DNA from: Candidatus Zixiibacteriota bacterium
Lineage (GTDB): Bacteria; Zixibacteria; MSB-5A5; WJJR01
Reading direction: 5' to 3'
Length of the DNA: 64,000 nt
NCBI GenBank assembly: GCA_036397555.1
Contig: DASWIS010000035.1
Coordinates: 1-64,000, forward strand
The translations under genes were made by a program, and so were the position numbers. Shown here piece by piece: positions 957 through 6,499 of this stretch. Every line of letters begins with the position of its first letter. Positions within the stretch are counted from its first letter, which is position 1. The notes beneath the pieces are model-generated. The model saw only the letters and a program-made list of their open reading frames with translations. It was not told where the DNA came from and did no database searches.

Positions 957-3900
957 ATGAATTCGATGTACGTCGCCCTGCTGCATGCGGCCATCGCCGT
1001 CGTGCTGATCGTGGTCGCCTTTCGCTCGCACGAGCGTTTCTGGTCGTTGGGGTTTGTCGGTTGGCGGAAAGTCTATGCCGGTTTGTCGCTGTATCTTATC
1101 GGCGCCCTGTTAAACGTCTGGTTGAGTCTGTCGGCGACCGTTACCGACCTGCCGGCGGGGCTCATCGCCGGGCTGGGACTGTTCCTGTCGGTCGCCGGTA
1201 TCGGGCTGGTACTGGCCGGTTCGATTGAACGTCTCCACGATCTGGCCGCCGAACGGCAACGTCTCGAGGACGTCCGCGCCGGATTCGATCTCTTCGATAC
1301 GCTGCGTGAAGTGATCGGCGGGCCATACTCGTTCCTGGAAATCCTCGAGTACTCGCTCAAGGAAATTGTCCGCGGCGCCAATGTCGAAAGCGGCGGTCTG
1401 TGGCTGCACAACCCGGCTGAAAAGGAATGGGTGCTGACCGGGGTGGCCGGGATGTCGCAGTCCTTTCGGCAGCAGGTCGAGTCGATCCGTGGCAGCGGGA
1501 CCGGATTCCAGCGGCTGGCGCATCTGCGCGAGGCGCACACGTTTAAGCGCGCCGAAGAAATACGCTTGTTCTTTCCTGAGTGGGAGGCCGAAGGGTACCG
1601 CTCGGTGATCGGTCTGCCGCTGGTGACCGTGACGCCCGGTCAGAGCGAACGTCGGCTGCTGGGTGTCATCGTGCTGGCCGATCATCTGCCCGAGAGATTC
1701 GATGAGGAACGCGGGCGCCGTTTGCATGCGGCCGCCGACTATGTCGCCGCCGTGATCGCCGAGGCGCGCCTGCACCGCGAACTGGACGGTCAGAAACGGC
1801 GCGCGGAAGAATCCATCGCAGCGCTGGAAGCCCGTCTGAACGAATCCCAGTCGGGTCTTGCGGAGTCGCAGGCGGTGACCGCCCGGCAACTACAGCAGTG
1901 GGAGAGCGAACGGGCCGATCTCACCAAACGGCATGGCGAAGAACTGGAAGCACAACGAACCGGCGCCGAGGACAGTCGCCGCCGACAACAGACCGAGTGG
2001 GAACAGGCGCTCACCGCCGAACGCGGCGTTGTCGAGGAGGCGCGTGCCCTTCTCAAACAGTCCGAGGAACGGATTGCGACGTTGCAGGAGCAACTGGCCG
2101 ATCGCGAACGGACATGGGAGCAGCAGCGACGGACCCTGGCCGATGACGCCGAGTCGAAGCGACGGGCCATGCAGGGCGAACGGGATTCTCTCCATGGTGA
2201 AACGCTCAAGCTTCGTGAACACATCACGGAGTTGCAGCGCAGTCATGAGAATGAAATCGGCGCGTTGACGACCGCCATCGATGCGGAACGCAGCCGATTC
2301 GCGCGCCAGCTCGATGAACTTCAGAAGCACATGGCCGGACGTGAGGAACAAATGCAGCGCCAGCGCGACGACGAATTGCGCCGGGCCACCGAACGCGAAA
2401 CCCGGCTACGCGCCACACTCGACGATGAGCGTCGGTCATGGGAAGCGACACAGCATACTCTGACCGCCAACGTCGAAGAGCTGCGCCGCGGTCTGGGGGC
2501 GCTGCAGGAGTCATCACAGCAGCGACTGGCCGAAAGCACTCAGGAGCGGATCCGCCTGGCGGAAACGCTGGAGACCGAACGCTCCGGCGCCCGGTCGCAG
2601 ATCGCCTCTGGGCGACGTATGCTTCAGGACATTGCGGATGCAGTGCGTGATGATAAACCGTTGGCTGGTGCGCTGAGCAAACTGCACGGGCTCATCCCGG
2701 GGGCGCCGGCGCTCGGGTTGTGGCGGCGACTCCCCGACGCGCGATACGAATTCCTGGCGGTCGTCGACACGGCGGGTCTCTCCGTTTCGATTCCCGATGA
2801 TTTGCAGCCGTGGGCGTTTGAACTGCAGACAATCCCCGCCGAAGGAGTGACCACGATAACCGAAGACTCGGCTTGGGATGCCATCCTCCGTCACGCGCCG
2901 AAAACCTCGCTGGAGTCATGGGCGCCGATTTGGGGCGAACGCAAAAGTCCTTCATGGGCGGTCTGCTGGCCCTGGGGCGGGACGGCGGGCGCCGGACACA
3001 ACGGTTGTGTGACGGCGTTCGGTTTCGCCGGAGCCGCGCCCGACCGTCGCGTGATCGAGGCACTGCACGATGCCATCGGGCTGATCGGTGCGCTGGCGGT
3101 CCGGTTCGAAGCGCCGGTGAGAATGGATGAGCGTCCGGTCGGAGCCGAAGTGCAGACTCAGGCGGAAATGGCTCGTGCCGACCAATCCGCAGCCGCTGAC
3201 GCAATGCTGGACCTGCATGACGCGCTCATCGCCTGGGCCGCCGACCAGACCGATGACGCGCTGTGTCTCGAATTGTCGGCGCGCGATGTCCCGCAGGTCG
3301 ATCGGGACTGGCTGAACCGCACCCTCACGGCCGTGCAGCGTCGCTGCCGCACCAATGGCGGCGATGCCGAAGAGGAGTTTCTCGTTCAGACAGAATCCCG
3401 CCGCGGGCAGACGATGCTGCGTCTCTTCAACGTGCGCTTGCGCGGCGGACACGAGCAGCCGCTGGCAACATCCGACCAACACGTGGAATTGCCGTCAACC
3501 GGCGACAGCGACAGCCGCACTCATTGGCTGGCAGTCGATGACCGCGCGGTCGGCATCGAAATCGCATTTCCCGCAGCGAAGGATCAGTCGCCGTCCGCCA
3601 CGGCGGCCGGCACTCTGGATGTACTCGTCCTCGATGACGACGAACCGATGCGCGAGTTGCTCGTCGGGATGGTCGAGACCTTGGGACATCGCGCGTCCGG
3701 TGCGGCGCTCTCCGCAACGCTTCGCCCGGAGAACTCCGCGCATCAGCCCGACATCGTCATCGTCAATCCCGGACCGGATGATCCCCGTGATGACGAGTCC
3801 ATTTTGGGGCTCCAATCGGTCTGGCGGGACACGCCGCTCATCGTTGTGTCCGACAACGAGGATACGGGGGCAGGGATCGACGGTGAGGCGGTTAGGATCC

Positions 3901-4013
3901 TCCGCCGTCCCTTCCGTTTGGATCAACTGCAGGATTGTCTTGAATCACTCGACCGCAGCGGCGTGCCGACCGTGGGGACCGCCTCGGAGTCGCGCGAAGT
4001 CACGGTCGGATAG
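957..4013 (+). CDS. Membrane-anchored GAF / coiled-coil protein with a degenerate response-regulator receiver domain
   Basis: This 1018-residue protein begins with three hydrophobic segments in residues 1-95. A GAF-like domain follows (about 105-275), then a long charged coiled coil (about 280-535) rich in Glu, Arg and Gln, and a second sensory-like region (about 545-720). The C-terminus from residue 887 reads as a CheY-type receiver: the acidic pocket LDDDEP (893-895) is present. The phospho-acceptor position is Asn937 (DIVIVNPGP) and the conserved Lys is Arg984 (ILRRPF), so phosphorylation is unlikely. No DHp or intact ATP-binding box is visible, although about 740-880 could be a decayed kinase ATPase fold. 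It probably acts as a scaffold or sensor at the membrane. Specific function unknown. Confidence 0.75.
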   Translation: MNSMYVALLHAAIAVVLIVVAFRSHERFWSLGFVGWRKVYAGLSLYLIGALLNVWLSLSATVTDLPAGLIAGLGLFLSVAGIGLVLAGSIERLHDLAAERQRLEDVRAGFDLFDTLREVIGGPYSFLEILEYSLKEIVRGANVESGGLWLHNPAEKEWVLTGVAGMSQSFRQQVESIRGSGTGFQRLAHLREAHTFKRAEEIRLFFPEWEAEGYRSVIGLPLVTVTPGQSERRLLGVIVLADHLPERFDEERGRRLHAAADYVAAVIAEARLHRELDGQKRRAEESIAALEARLNESQSGLAESQAVTARQLQQWESERADLTKRHGEELEAQRTGAEDSRRRQQTEWEQALTAERGVVEEARALLKQSEERIATLQEQLADRERTWEQQRRTLADDAESKRRAMQGERDSLHGETLKLREHITELQRSHENEIGALTTAIDAERSRFARQLDELQKHMAGREEQMQRQRDDELRRATERETRLRATLDDERRSWEATQHTLTANVEELRRGLGALQESSQQRLAESTQERIRLAETLETERSGARSQIASGRRMLQDIADAVRDDKPLAGALSKLHGLIPGAPALGLWRRLPDARYEFLAVVDTAGLSVSIPDDLQPWAFELQTIPAEGVTTITEDSAWDAILRHAPKTSLESWAPIWGERKSPSWAVCWPWGGTAGAGHNGCVTAFGFAGAAPDRRVIEALHDAIGLIGALAVRFEAPVRMDERPVGAEVQTQAEMARADQSAAADAMLDLHDALIAWAADQTDDALCLELSARDVPQVDRDWLNRTLTAVQRRCRTNGGDAEEEFLVQTESRRGQTMLRLFNVRLRGGHEQPLATSDQHVELPSTGDSDSRTHWLAVDDRAVGIEIAFPAAKDQSPSATAAGTLDVLVLDDDEPMRELLVGMVETLGHRASGAALSATLRPENSAHQPDIVIVNPGPDDPRDDESILGLQSVWRDTPLIVVSDNEDTGAGIDGEAVRILRRPFRLDQLQDCLESLDRSGVPTVGTASESREVTVG

Positions 4014-4024
4014 CACGGTCGAAT

Positions 4025-4753
4025 TCATTCCGCAGTATCTGCGGGGGCGGTCACGCCGGATTTCCGCATCCGCATATACCGCCCCGCCTCGATATGAGCG
4101 CGGCGCAGCGGCTCCGGCAGCCGGTGCGTCGTGCAGCAGCGCAGCACCGTGTCGATGCTCCCCAACAGATCGATGCGATGACCGGGCGATACGAATAGCG
4201 AATTGACCCCCGACCTCGTCCGCAGCACCACGGCCGGAGCTTGCGGCGAGTAGCGGACGACCGCATAGTCGCCGCGCTTCGGACCCGGCGGATCATAGCG
4301 CCCTACGAGTCGTTCCCGCGCGCAGCCGATCGACGGCACATCCATGCGCATTCCCAGGTGCGTGGCCAAACCGCAGCGTCGCGGATGGCAGACGCCGTGA
4401 CTGGCAAAGAGCGCGAGATCCGGAGTGTGGTAAATACGCTTCCAGGCCGCCAGTGCGGTCGGGCCGAGTCGAAACGCCGAATATCCGCCGAGTTTGGGGA
4501 AGGCGACCGGTTCGCGCGTGTGGGCGCATTGAATCTCGATGATTTTGCCCTTGATGATGTCCATGACGACGATGGCCACGTACACGTTGTCGCCGTCTTC
4601 GGCCGCATCGACGCCAGCGACAATGCGCGGCGGCGCGGCGTGCGGTGTCAGACTCAGGTACTTCGCGAGCGCGCTTTGAATGGCGGCCGCCCGTGACACC
4701 GATACATTCCACGGATGCCTGAGGATCTGCGGCGGTATGAAGGCGGTCTTCAT
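4025..4753 (-). CDS. Endonuclease V family protein with substituted catalytic residues
   Basis: At 242 residues it spans the whole endonuclease V (Nfi) fold: VAGVDAAE, GGYSAFRLGP, SHGVCHPRRCGLATHLG, DVPSIGCARERL and LPEPLRRAH align in order with E. coli Nfi. Authentic enzymes cut 3' of deoxyinosine using Asp, Glu, Asp and Lys. Here only Asp49 is kept. The Glu of the FRE motif is Leu96, the Asp of VDGHG is Ala117, and the Lys of AKKRL is Arg146. The reading frame is intact and the HPRR and substrate-pocket motifs are retained, so this is probably a folded pseudoenzyme, perhaps a DNA-binding protein. It is convergent with the upstream sensor gene. Confidence 0.8.
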   Translation of the reverse strand: MKTAFIPPQILRHPWNVSVSRAAAIQSALAKYLSLTPHAAPPRIVAGVDAAEDGDNVYVAIVVMDIIKGKIIEIQCAHTREPVAFPKLGGYSAFRLGPTALAAWKRIYHTPDLALFASHGVCHPRRCGLATHLGMRMDVPSIGCARERLVGRYDPPGPKRGDYAVVRYSPQAPAVVLRTRSGVNSLFVSPGHRIDLLGSIDTVLRCCTTHRLPEPLRRAHIEAGRYMRMRKSGVTAPADTAE

Positions 4754-5155: not shown

Positions 5156-6499
5156 ATGAGTGATCGTCCGATGATTAAAACCGCGTTGCCCGGTCCCAAG
5201 AGCAAAAAGAAAATCAAGTTCGATGAGACCTATGTGTCGCCGTCGTACACCCGCGCCCATCCGACTGTGTTGGACCATGCCGACGGCCCGTGGATCTGGG
5301 ACATCGACGGCAACAAGTTTCTCGACTTCCATTCCGGAATCGGCGTCTGCTCGACCGGCAACACTCACCCGAAGGTCGTCGAAGCCATCATCCGCCAGAC
5401 ACGCAGAGCCGTGCACATCTCATCGGCGGACTTTTATCATGAGCTGGTCGGGCAATTGGCCAAGCGCTTAAGCGATGTCGCACCGGGACCGCAGCCGCGC
5501 CGCACGTTCTTCACCAATTCAGGCACCGAGTCGGTCGAGGCGGCGCTGAAGCTGGCCCGCTACAAGAGACGCCGTCCGCGCATGATCGCGTTCATGGGCG
5601 CTTTTCACGGACGGACAATGGGCGCGCTGTCCCTGACCTGCTCGAAGAGCACGCAGCGGAAAGGGTTTGCGCCGCTGCTGCCGGAGGTGACGCACGCGCC
5701 GTACCCGTACTGCTACCGCTGCCCGCTAAATTTGGAGCACTCCACCTGCGGTCTGGCCTGCCTGAAGTTTCTGGAGGATGAGATCCTCACGCGCGTCGCC
5801 CCGGCCGAAGAAGTCGCCGCGATCATCATCGAGCCGATTCAGGGCGAAGGCGGGTACATCGTGCCCCCTGACGACTATTTTCCGGCCCTAGCGGCGCTGG
5901 CGAAGAAACACGACATCTATTTGATCGTCGACGAAGTGCAGTCGGGAATGGGCAAAACCGGCAAGATGTTTGCCATCGAGCATTTCGGCGTTTCGCCGCA
6001 AATTCTCACGACTGCCAAAGCGCTGGCATCCGGTGTACCGCTCGGCGCCTGCATTGCCGACCGCGATGTAATGGACTGGCCGCCGGGCGCCCATTCGACC
6101 ACATTCGGCGGCAACCCGCTGGGGTGTGCCTCCGCGCTGGCGACCATCGATCTGTTGGAGGGCGGTCTGATTGCCAATGCGGCGAAGCAGGGTAAGTTTG
6201 TCATGGCGGAACTCAAGAAGCTGCAGAAGCGCCACCCGTCGATGGGCGATGTGCGCGGACTGGGACTGATGATCGGCATCGAGTTCGTCAAAGACCGCGC
6301 CAGCAAAAAGCCCGCGCCGGAAATGGCCGATGAGGTCATGATGCGCGCCTTCGAGAAGGGGCTGATGCTGCTGACATGCGGGCCCAACGGGATCCGCCTC
6401 GTGCCGCCGCTCATCATCGAGCGTCAGCACTGCCAGGTGGCGCTCGAAATTCTCGACGAAGTCATCGGCAAGGCCGAAAAGAAGTTCAAGATCGGATAG
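5156..6499 (+). CDS. Class III PLP aminotransferase (acetylornithine/4-aminobutyrate type)
   Basis: This 447-residue protein has the full class III fold: NSGTESVEAALKLARY (PLP phosphate site), GAFHGRTMGA, EPIQGEGGY, the VDEVQSG Asp-Glu-Val-Gln motif, and Lys288 in TTAKALASG as the Schiff-base lysine. The cysteine-rich PYCYRCPL...CGLACL insertion near residues 182-203 is typical of the GabT-like group that also includes archaeal broad-specificity amino-acid aminotransferases and racemases. The exact substrate therefore cannot be read from sequence. It starts a plus-strand run with asparaginase (44 bp downstream) and tryptophanase, which suggests amino-acid catabolism. GGAGG about 8 bases upstream supports the ATG chosen. 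Confidence 0.85.
   Translation: MSDRPMIKTALPGPKSKKKIKFDETYVSPSYTRAHPTVLDHADGPWIWDIDGNKFLDFHSGIGVCSTGNTHPKVVEAIIRQTRRAVHISSADFYHELVGQLAKRLSDVAPGPQPRRTFFTNSGTESVEAALKLARYKRRRPRMIAFMGAFHGRTMGALSLTCSKSTQRKGFAPLLPEVTHAPYPYCYRCPLNLEHSTCGLACLKFLEDEILTRVAPAEEVAAIIIEPIQGEGGYIVPPDDYFPALAALAKKHDIYLIVDEVQSGMGKTGKMFAIEHFGVSPQILTTAKALASGVPLGACIADRDVMDWPPGAHSTTFGGNPLGCASALATIDLLEGGLIANAAKQGKFVMAELKKLQKRHPSMGDVRGLGLMIGIEFVKDRASKKPAPEMADEVMMRAFEKGLMLLTCGPNGIRLVPPLIIERQHCQVALEILDEVIGKAEKKFKIG

Follow-up and report, generated by a model that had tools for sequence, protein, structure and literature searches.

We consider it somewhat probable that the endonuclease V (EndoV) homologue encoded in the window (the whole stretch of 64,000 nucleotides that was analysed) is a vertically inherited nfi gene, which lost its two-metal site after the split from its sister family and has persisted as a nucleic-acid binder that would no longer cut by the EndoV mechanism. 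Comparison of the sequences shows orthology by synteny, a family-wide loss of catalytic residues, purifying selection, and a relaxation that falls mainly on the catalytic columns and the wedge.

The gene starts with ATG and has no internal stop codon, and its product (Table 1) matches Pfam PF04493 at E=2.5e-51 with a score of 174.6 bits against a cut-off of 23.4; residues 29-220 lie on profile positions 3-197 of 198, which covers the profile at full length. The first-pass annotation had described a full-length EndoV homologue with an intact frame, and these matches confirm it. In a comparison with solved structures, residues 13-225 match the Thermotoga maritima EndoV chain 2w35 at 3e-40, and the three active-site motif regions align without gaps (FRLGP with FREGP, FASHGVCHPR with FDGQGLAHPR, and GCARERL with GVAKSRL). 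The alignment places Leu96 (codon CTC), Ala117 (GCC) and Arg146 (CGG) in the columns of T. maritima Glu89, Asp110 and Lys139, so that the catalytic set Asp43/Glu89/Asp110/Lys139 reads D, L, A, R in the window protein. Asp49, which corresponds to Asp43, is kept, as is the fifth active-site residue, His220 (His214 in T. maritima). The annotation's central claim, that three of the four catalytic residues are replaced and only Asp49 is left, is thereby upheld; the motif regions being ungapped, realignment does not restore the acidic residues.

Two further parts of the site have changed. The strand-separating wedge, PYIP, has become PKLG with the loss of its tyrosine, a degeneration absent from the annotation's description, and the hypoxanthine pocket (Gly83, Leu85, Gly111, Gly113, Gly121 and Leu142) reads G, S, S, G, G, L; the pocket residues and the roles of the catalytic residues and of the PYIP wedge follow passages of PMC4650699. 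The window protein stays below the curated cut-offs of the NCBIfam EndoV equivalogs NF041102 (190.7 versus 300) and NF008629 (171.4 versus 230). A sister protein with the complete set (DEDK) also falls under them (218.4 and 217.2), so the miss is no marker of catalytic loss. An AlphaFold2 prediction from three sequences (the window protein, L008 and L009) reached a mean pLDDT of 38.4, and no claim made here rests on that model.

Table 1. The EndoV gene of the window, its motifs and its neighbours
Feature	Positions	Strand	Basis
EndoV homologue, 242 aa, catalytic set incomplete	4025..4753	-	ORF, Pfam, sequence alignment with solved structures
Asp49 codon (T. maritima Asp43), kept in 6/6 complete family copies	4607..4609	-	
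PKLGGYSAFRLGP: degenerate wedge (PYIP to PKLG) and Leu96 at the Glu89 column	4460..4498	-	
Ala117 codon, Asp110 column	4403..4405	-	
DLALFASHGVCHPRRCG: HPR motif kept; Cys122 and His123 family-invariant (canonical EndoV mostly Ala at 122)	4370..4420	-	
Arg146 codon, Lys139 column	4316..4318	-	
AVVRYSPQAPAVVLRTR: Arg167 and SPQAP family-invariant, not canonical consensus	4214..4264	-	
RLPEPLRRAHIEAGRYMRM: C-terminal block with His220 (His214); Arg218 and Glu222 family-invariant, not canonical consensus	4067..4123	-	
Neighbour with weak GAF_2 match (27.6 bits, below cut-off 28.6), convergent with EndoV gene	957..4013	+	
Neighbour, class-III aminotransferase (PF00202), divergent from EndoV gene	5156..6499	+	

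The loss is shared by the whole family of the window genome (f1). Each of the seven genomes of this family, all of them drafts (35 to 530 contigs), carries a single EndoV match, and in G001 the copy is truncated at the end of a contig. The annotation had proposed a search for a catalytic nfi elsewhere; the window genome, which is rated 100% complete, yielded no second copy. The four catalytic columns spell DLAR in the window protein and DLNN, DDVR, DHSA, DHAS and DEHD in the other five complete copies. All six lack the second Asp and the Lys, and five lack the Glu, with replacements that differ from copy to copy; none of the six has an intact set. The case that the annotation had named against itself, in which orthologues are intact and this copy alone is mutated, thus fails, with the caveat that the next family of the same order, the sister family f2, keeps DEDK in 2/2 genomes. 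Tyr80 of the wedge is kept in 2/6 complete copies of the window's family. In the pocket, Gly83, Gly113 and Gly121 are kept in 6/6, Gly111 and Leu142 in 5/6, and Leu85 in 3/6, while Asp49 and His220 are invariant.

The closest pair of copies (G004 and G005) has 94% amino-acid identity, with a dN of 0.036 and a dS of 0.33 (dN/dS about 0.11), and its members differ at columns 110 (Ser, Ala) and 139 (Ala, Ser). The five between-genus pairs that were measured share only 49-58% of their residues, all six complete copies are open, and 82 positions do not vary within the family. Purifying selection acts on the protein but does not hold the catalytic positions. The open frames and the low dN of the closest pair bear out the annotation's view of a gene that is selected and not decaying. 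Loss of catalytic residues together with purifying selection is one mark of a pseudoenzyme, beside the lack of activity, and the window's family shows this mark.

The released positions cluster in the catalytic site and the wedge. Among 119 canonical EndoVs, 33 columns are kept in at least 90% of the sequences, and eight of them (P79, Y80, P82, L85, E89, D110, A138 and K139) are relaxed in the window's family, a column being called relaxed when its entropy there is at least 1.4 bits. They cover the metal site apart from Asp43, as well as the wedge, a single pocket position and one adjacent residue. The remaining 25 columns include 21 that are invariant and four (111, 142, 167 and 178) that vary mildly. 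Seven of the 33 columns belong to the catalytic site or the wedge, and all but one of these seven are relaxed (hypergeometric 1.7e-4, with a threshold that was set after seeing the data).

Other positions have become fixed. Arg21, Cys122, Arg167, SPQAP, Arg205, Arg218 and Glu222 are newly invariant in the window's family, being neither canonical consensus nor present in the canonical sisters; Arg148 and Arg228 were not counted as new, since they set the family apart from its sister but equal the commonest canonical letter. The family has settled on new constraints, beyond those of an EndoV with a dead site, although invariance among six sequences is a modest measure. The net charge of the family ranges from +6 to +11, compared with a median of +2 for 19 canonical proteins of the phylum and +7 and +10 for two sister proteins. 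It is thus no higher than that of the sisters, and the gain of arginines is not reflected in a higher overall charge.

The gene neighbourhood speaks to the origin of the loss. The divergent class-III aminotransferase gene adjoins EndoV in all six complete members of f1 and in both genomes of f2, and the cluster of the convergent gene with the GAF_2 match adjoins it in 5/6 complete f1 members and 2/2 f2 genomes, the gene being not clustered in G006. In a tree of RpoB, f1 and f2 are joined with an SH-aLRT support of 100. Given the shared locus and this join, the simplest reading would be that the loss took place in situ, in a vertically inherited gene, after the split from f2. The neighbours of the EndoV gene suggest no binding partner or nucleic-acid context.

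In the binder that we favour, cleavage would be absent, since the metal-binding Asp110 and Glu89 are gone, as is Lys139. The protein would grip its ligand through the remainder of the cleft, by glycines matching Gly83, Gly113 and Gly121 and by His123, Arg95 and His220, and also through the family-invariant, non-canonical arginines Arg21, Arg167, Arg205 and Arg218. Relaxation of the wedge as well makes deoxyinosine flipped from duplex DNA a less likely ligand than RNA or a nucleic acid that is branched, single-stranded or open in some other way. The annotation had proposed recognition of inosine or of branched DNA or RNA without cutting. Inosine binding by way of the wedge appears disfavoured, as the wedge and the Leu85 column show roughly as much variation in the family as the catalytic residues do, while branched-DNA binding is possible by analogy, since human ENDOV binds branched DNA without the wedge tyrosine.

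Work on other EndoVs bears on this reading from both sides. As reported in PMC6300609, the catalytically dead D43A variant of T. maritima EndoV still scans and interrogates DNA, and does so less without the wedge. In one study of human ENDOV, branched DNA was bound and left uncut, the Y91A substitution had no effect on binding, and replacement of the whole wedge by glycines abolished branched-DNA binding (PMC3489907). The last result counts by analogy against a binder, as the wedge is degraded in the window protein. Asp49 and His220, invariant in 6/6 complete copies, would not obviously be needed by a pure binder, and this too speaks against it. The annotation's term "non-cleaving" is deduced from the lost residues and should be read with care: the related Endonuclease dU (Endo_dU) cleaves with an incomplete tetrad, so by analogy the loss of the tetrad would be no proof of inactivity.

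Repair of hypoxanthine and uracil may rest with Aag and uracil-DNA glycosylase (UDG) of the same genome. Aag removes hypoxanthine, and an Aag-type glycosylase was found in 113 of the 132 genomes of the phylum, the window genome included, although G001 and G006, which belong to the seven-genome family of the window, gave no match. UDG was found in 9/9 genomes of the window's order, again including the window genome. With these enzymes at hand, the loss of repair by EndoV may be tolerable. Aag is present in 89/98 genomes of non-canonical families versus 21/30 of canonical ones (Fisher 0.013, relatedness and completeness ignored), a frequency that fits a permissive role and does not explain the catalytic loss. 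About 1.7 kb from the Aag gene, on contig C8:626512-628963 of the window genome (G000), lies a 660-aa frame for a GIY-YIG protein, which we presume from its size to be UvrC.

The main rival, which we think rather unlikely though far from negligible, is that the protein is still a nuclease with an unconventional site, in which Asp49, His123 and His220 would cut a different lesion in the manner of Endo_dU. These three residues are invariant in 6/6 complete copies while the Glu89, Asp110 and Lys139 columns vary freely, and in AfuEndo_dU the D10A substitution alone has no effect whereas D10A-H166A dramatically decreases cutting, as described in PMC11585767. However, His is found at 116 in 119/119 and at 214 in 95/119 canonical EndoVs, so that the retention of the histidines is unspecific. 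The window protein has no match to PF01949 (Endo_dU) at E values up to 1, and with UDG throughout the order a dU nuclease is not obviously needed.

It is less probable again, indeed doubtful, that the EndoV fold serves as a scaffold or regulator, binding another protein through its RxSPQAP and RRAHIEAG blocks and no nucleic acid. Residues of these blocks are family-invariant and depart from the canonical consensus; but most conserved EndoV columns are kept in the window's family, no loss-specific partner gene was found beside EndoV, and the canonical sister family has the same adjacent genes.

Very improbable, in our judgement, is a gene on its way out that is still undisrupted. Decay does occur in the phylum, where 49 of 132 genomes (22 of the 78 good ones) have no EndoV match and the non-canonical copies of G067 and G083 are interrupted. 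In the window's family, retention in 7/7 genomes, six open frames despite the 49-58% between-genus identity, the dN/dS of about 0.11 in the closest pair and the 82 invariant positions stand against it and refute it for the family as a whole; decay of this single copy is rejected as well. Sequencing or assembly error, conceivable in draft genomes, and misalignment are rejected with a negligible residual chance, as the loss recurs in six separate genomes and the motif alignments are ungapped.

Catalytic loss is also found beyond the window's family. An EndoV match is present in 83 of the 132 genomes of the phylum (Zixibacteriota), and of 80 alignable copies (the fragmentary or interrupted ones of G001, G067 and G083 were left out) 19 are DEDK and 61 are non-canonical. 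Outside the phylum, 99/105 EndoVs are DEDK and 6/105 are not (Fisher 8e-25 versus the phylum, relatedness ignored); this set comes from 111 genomes with a match, minus G299 and G231, which the profile missed, and the incomplete G216, G403, G306 and G163. Since 99 of the 105 outside EndoVs keep all four residues, the loss is more than chance. Three outside copies, L145, L146 and L147 (G347, G205 and G301), have Phe at Asp43 and Arg or Asn at Lys139, so catalytic loss in EndoV is not confined to the phylum.

The non-canonical EndoVs of the phylum fall in three groups, f1, f7-f10 and f14-f16, with different residue sets. In f7-f10, Glu89 is kept in 46/46, Arg stands at 139 in 46/46, Asp is never found at 110, and the wedge tyrosine is kept in 41/46. 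In f14-f16, Gly at 43 and Pro at 110 are found in 9/9, and Lys139 and the wedge tyrosine are likewise kept in 9/9. In the RpoB tree (29 genomes, a quick search with SH-aLRT only, f17 absent and three rows partial), f14-f16 join the canonical f4, f18 and f19 with a support of 83, f7-f10 form a clade with a support of 99, and the branching among f1 with f2, the canonical f3 with f11 and f12, and f7-f10 has a support of 36. The EndoV tree separates the three groups as well, but AU tests on it reject neither a clade of f1 with f14-f16 (p 0.576; 4.08 log units above the free search) nor one of f1 with f7-f10 (p 0.354). The EndoV tree alone is therefore no proof, and the claim rests on the RpoB tree and the differing residue sets, which suggest three separate losses in the phylum if there was no gene transfer. 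This would be the simplest history, because regaining several catalytic residues is unlikely. More tentatively, and with a little less than an even chance in our estimate, EndoV may have become a non-cutting protein on three separate branches of the phylum, with a different part of the active site lost and a different remainder kept on each, to yield readers without an eraser.

Several features of these groups are worth recording. In f7, Asp110 is most often replaced by His (20/27), commonly in the motif HGHGIAHPR, and Lys139 is Arg in every row; the three histidines may, together with Asp43 and Glu89, make up a candidate new metal site. A His at 110 could hold a metal, so "dead" is an unsuitable word for this group. 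Two non-canonical EndoV genes, L070 (G067) and L090 (G083), in f7 and f9, are interrupted, and some copies in these groups may be in the course of being lost. A same-strand gene of one cluster follows EndoV in 53/56 genomes of f7-f12, and the one member of the cluster that was scanned, taken from G034, belongs to the M20 peptidase family. We rejected this gene as a functional partner: it is common to the canonical f11 and f12 and the non-canonical f7-f10 and hence does not explain the catalytic loss.

In f14-f16, an EndoQ-like protein is found in 8/11 genomes versus 2/121 others in the phylum. One example, L242:1489-2745 (+), matches TIGR00375, which we take to be EndoQ, at 202.7 bits, below the cut-off of 326.6. 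The outliers are G018 (f6), which has no EndoV match, and G039, which has only a weak EndoV fragment. The EndoQ-like protein may have taken over deamination repair in f14-f16. One EndoV homologue of f15, L065:1548-2258, scores 194.9 bits with PF04493 and also has a weak PF01949 match (24.9 bits, cut-off 32.7) over 50 residues near the C-terminus. EndoV also occurs within open frames of about 585 aa at L200:1132-1953 and in L207 (G294 and G147); in L200, a canonical DEDK EndoV is followed by a match to the poly(A) polymerase head domain (22.8 bits, slightly under the cut-off of 23), which may point to a fusion with a tRNA nucleotidyltransferase-like protein. Viral contigs scanned for relatives of EndoV yielded 63 pattern matches and no confirmed relative.

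A lineage that keeps EndoV without its cutting residues would show that the fold has another role worth preserving, and readers of lesions or structures without an eraser would be a bacterial protein type that we did not find among the open-licence papers listed. With the DEDK orthologue of the sister family at the same locus, L092:4860-5603 in G008, the window protein forms a natural before-and-after pair for comparing binding and cleavage. For annotation, a match to PF04493 calls for a check of the catalytic residues before the protein is named an endonuclease. The abstracts of PMC4650699 and PMC8526164 present EndoV as a protein conserved from bacteria to humans, with DNA repair as its role in bacteria and a role on RNA in humans. 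The fold and the family are well known; among the open-licence papers listed, judged by title and the opening of the abstract, we found neither a natural inactive EndoV nor a paper on EndoV in Zixibacteria, though such a report may exist, and within that scope a natural, conserved EndoV without catalytic residues and its repeated origin in one phylum appear to be new.

Compared with known systems, the window protein resembles bacterial EndoV (Nfi of T. maritima and E. coli) in its full-length PF04493 match, its ungapped motifs, the HPR motif, some of the pocket glycines, and the counterparts of Asp43 and His214. It differs in the replacement of Glu89, Asp110 and Lys139, in its degenerate PYIP wedge, and in family-specific invariants including RxSPQAP. 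Human ENDOV keeps the catalytic set that is lost in the window protein. This natural EndoV bound branched DNA, and neither bound nor cut hypoxanthine DNA, in the study cited above (PMC3489907), but unlike the window protein as we read it, it cuts inosine-containing RNA (title of PMC3741642). Endo_dU (DUF99, PF01949) is RNase H-like and related to EndoV, and its tetrad is incomplete, as is the catalytic set of the window protein; it is, however, an active nuclease in the text of PMC11585767 cited here, and the window protein does not match its profile. The RNase H-like centromere protein B group, as described in PMC3985635, is one example of proteins that have lost their metal ligands and kept the fold, as the window protein has, with the difference that this group is classed with proteins derived from transposable elements whereas the window protein derives from a repair enzyme.
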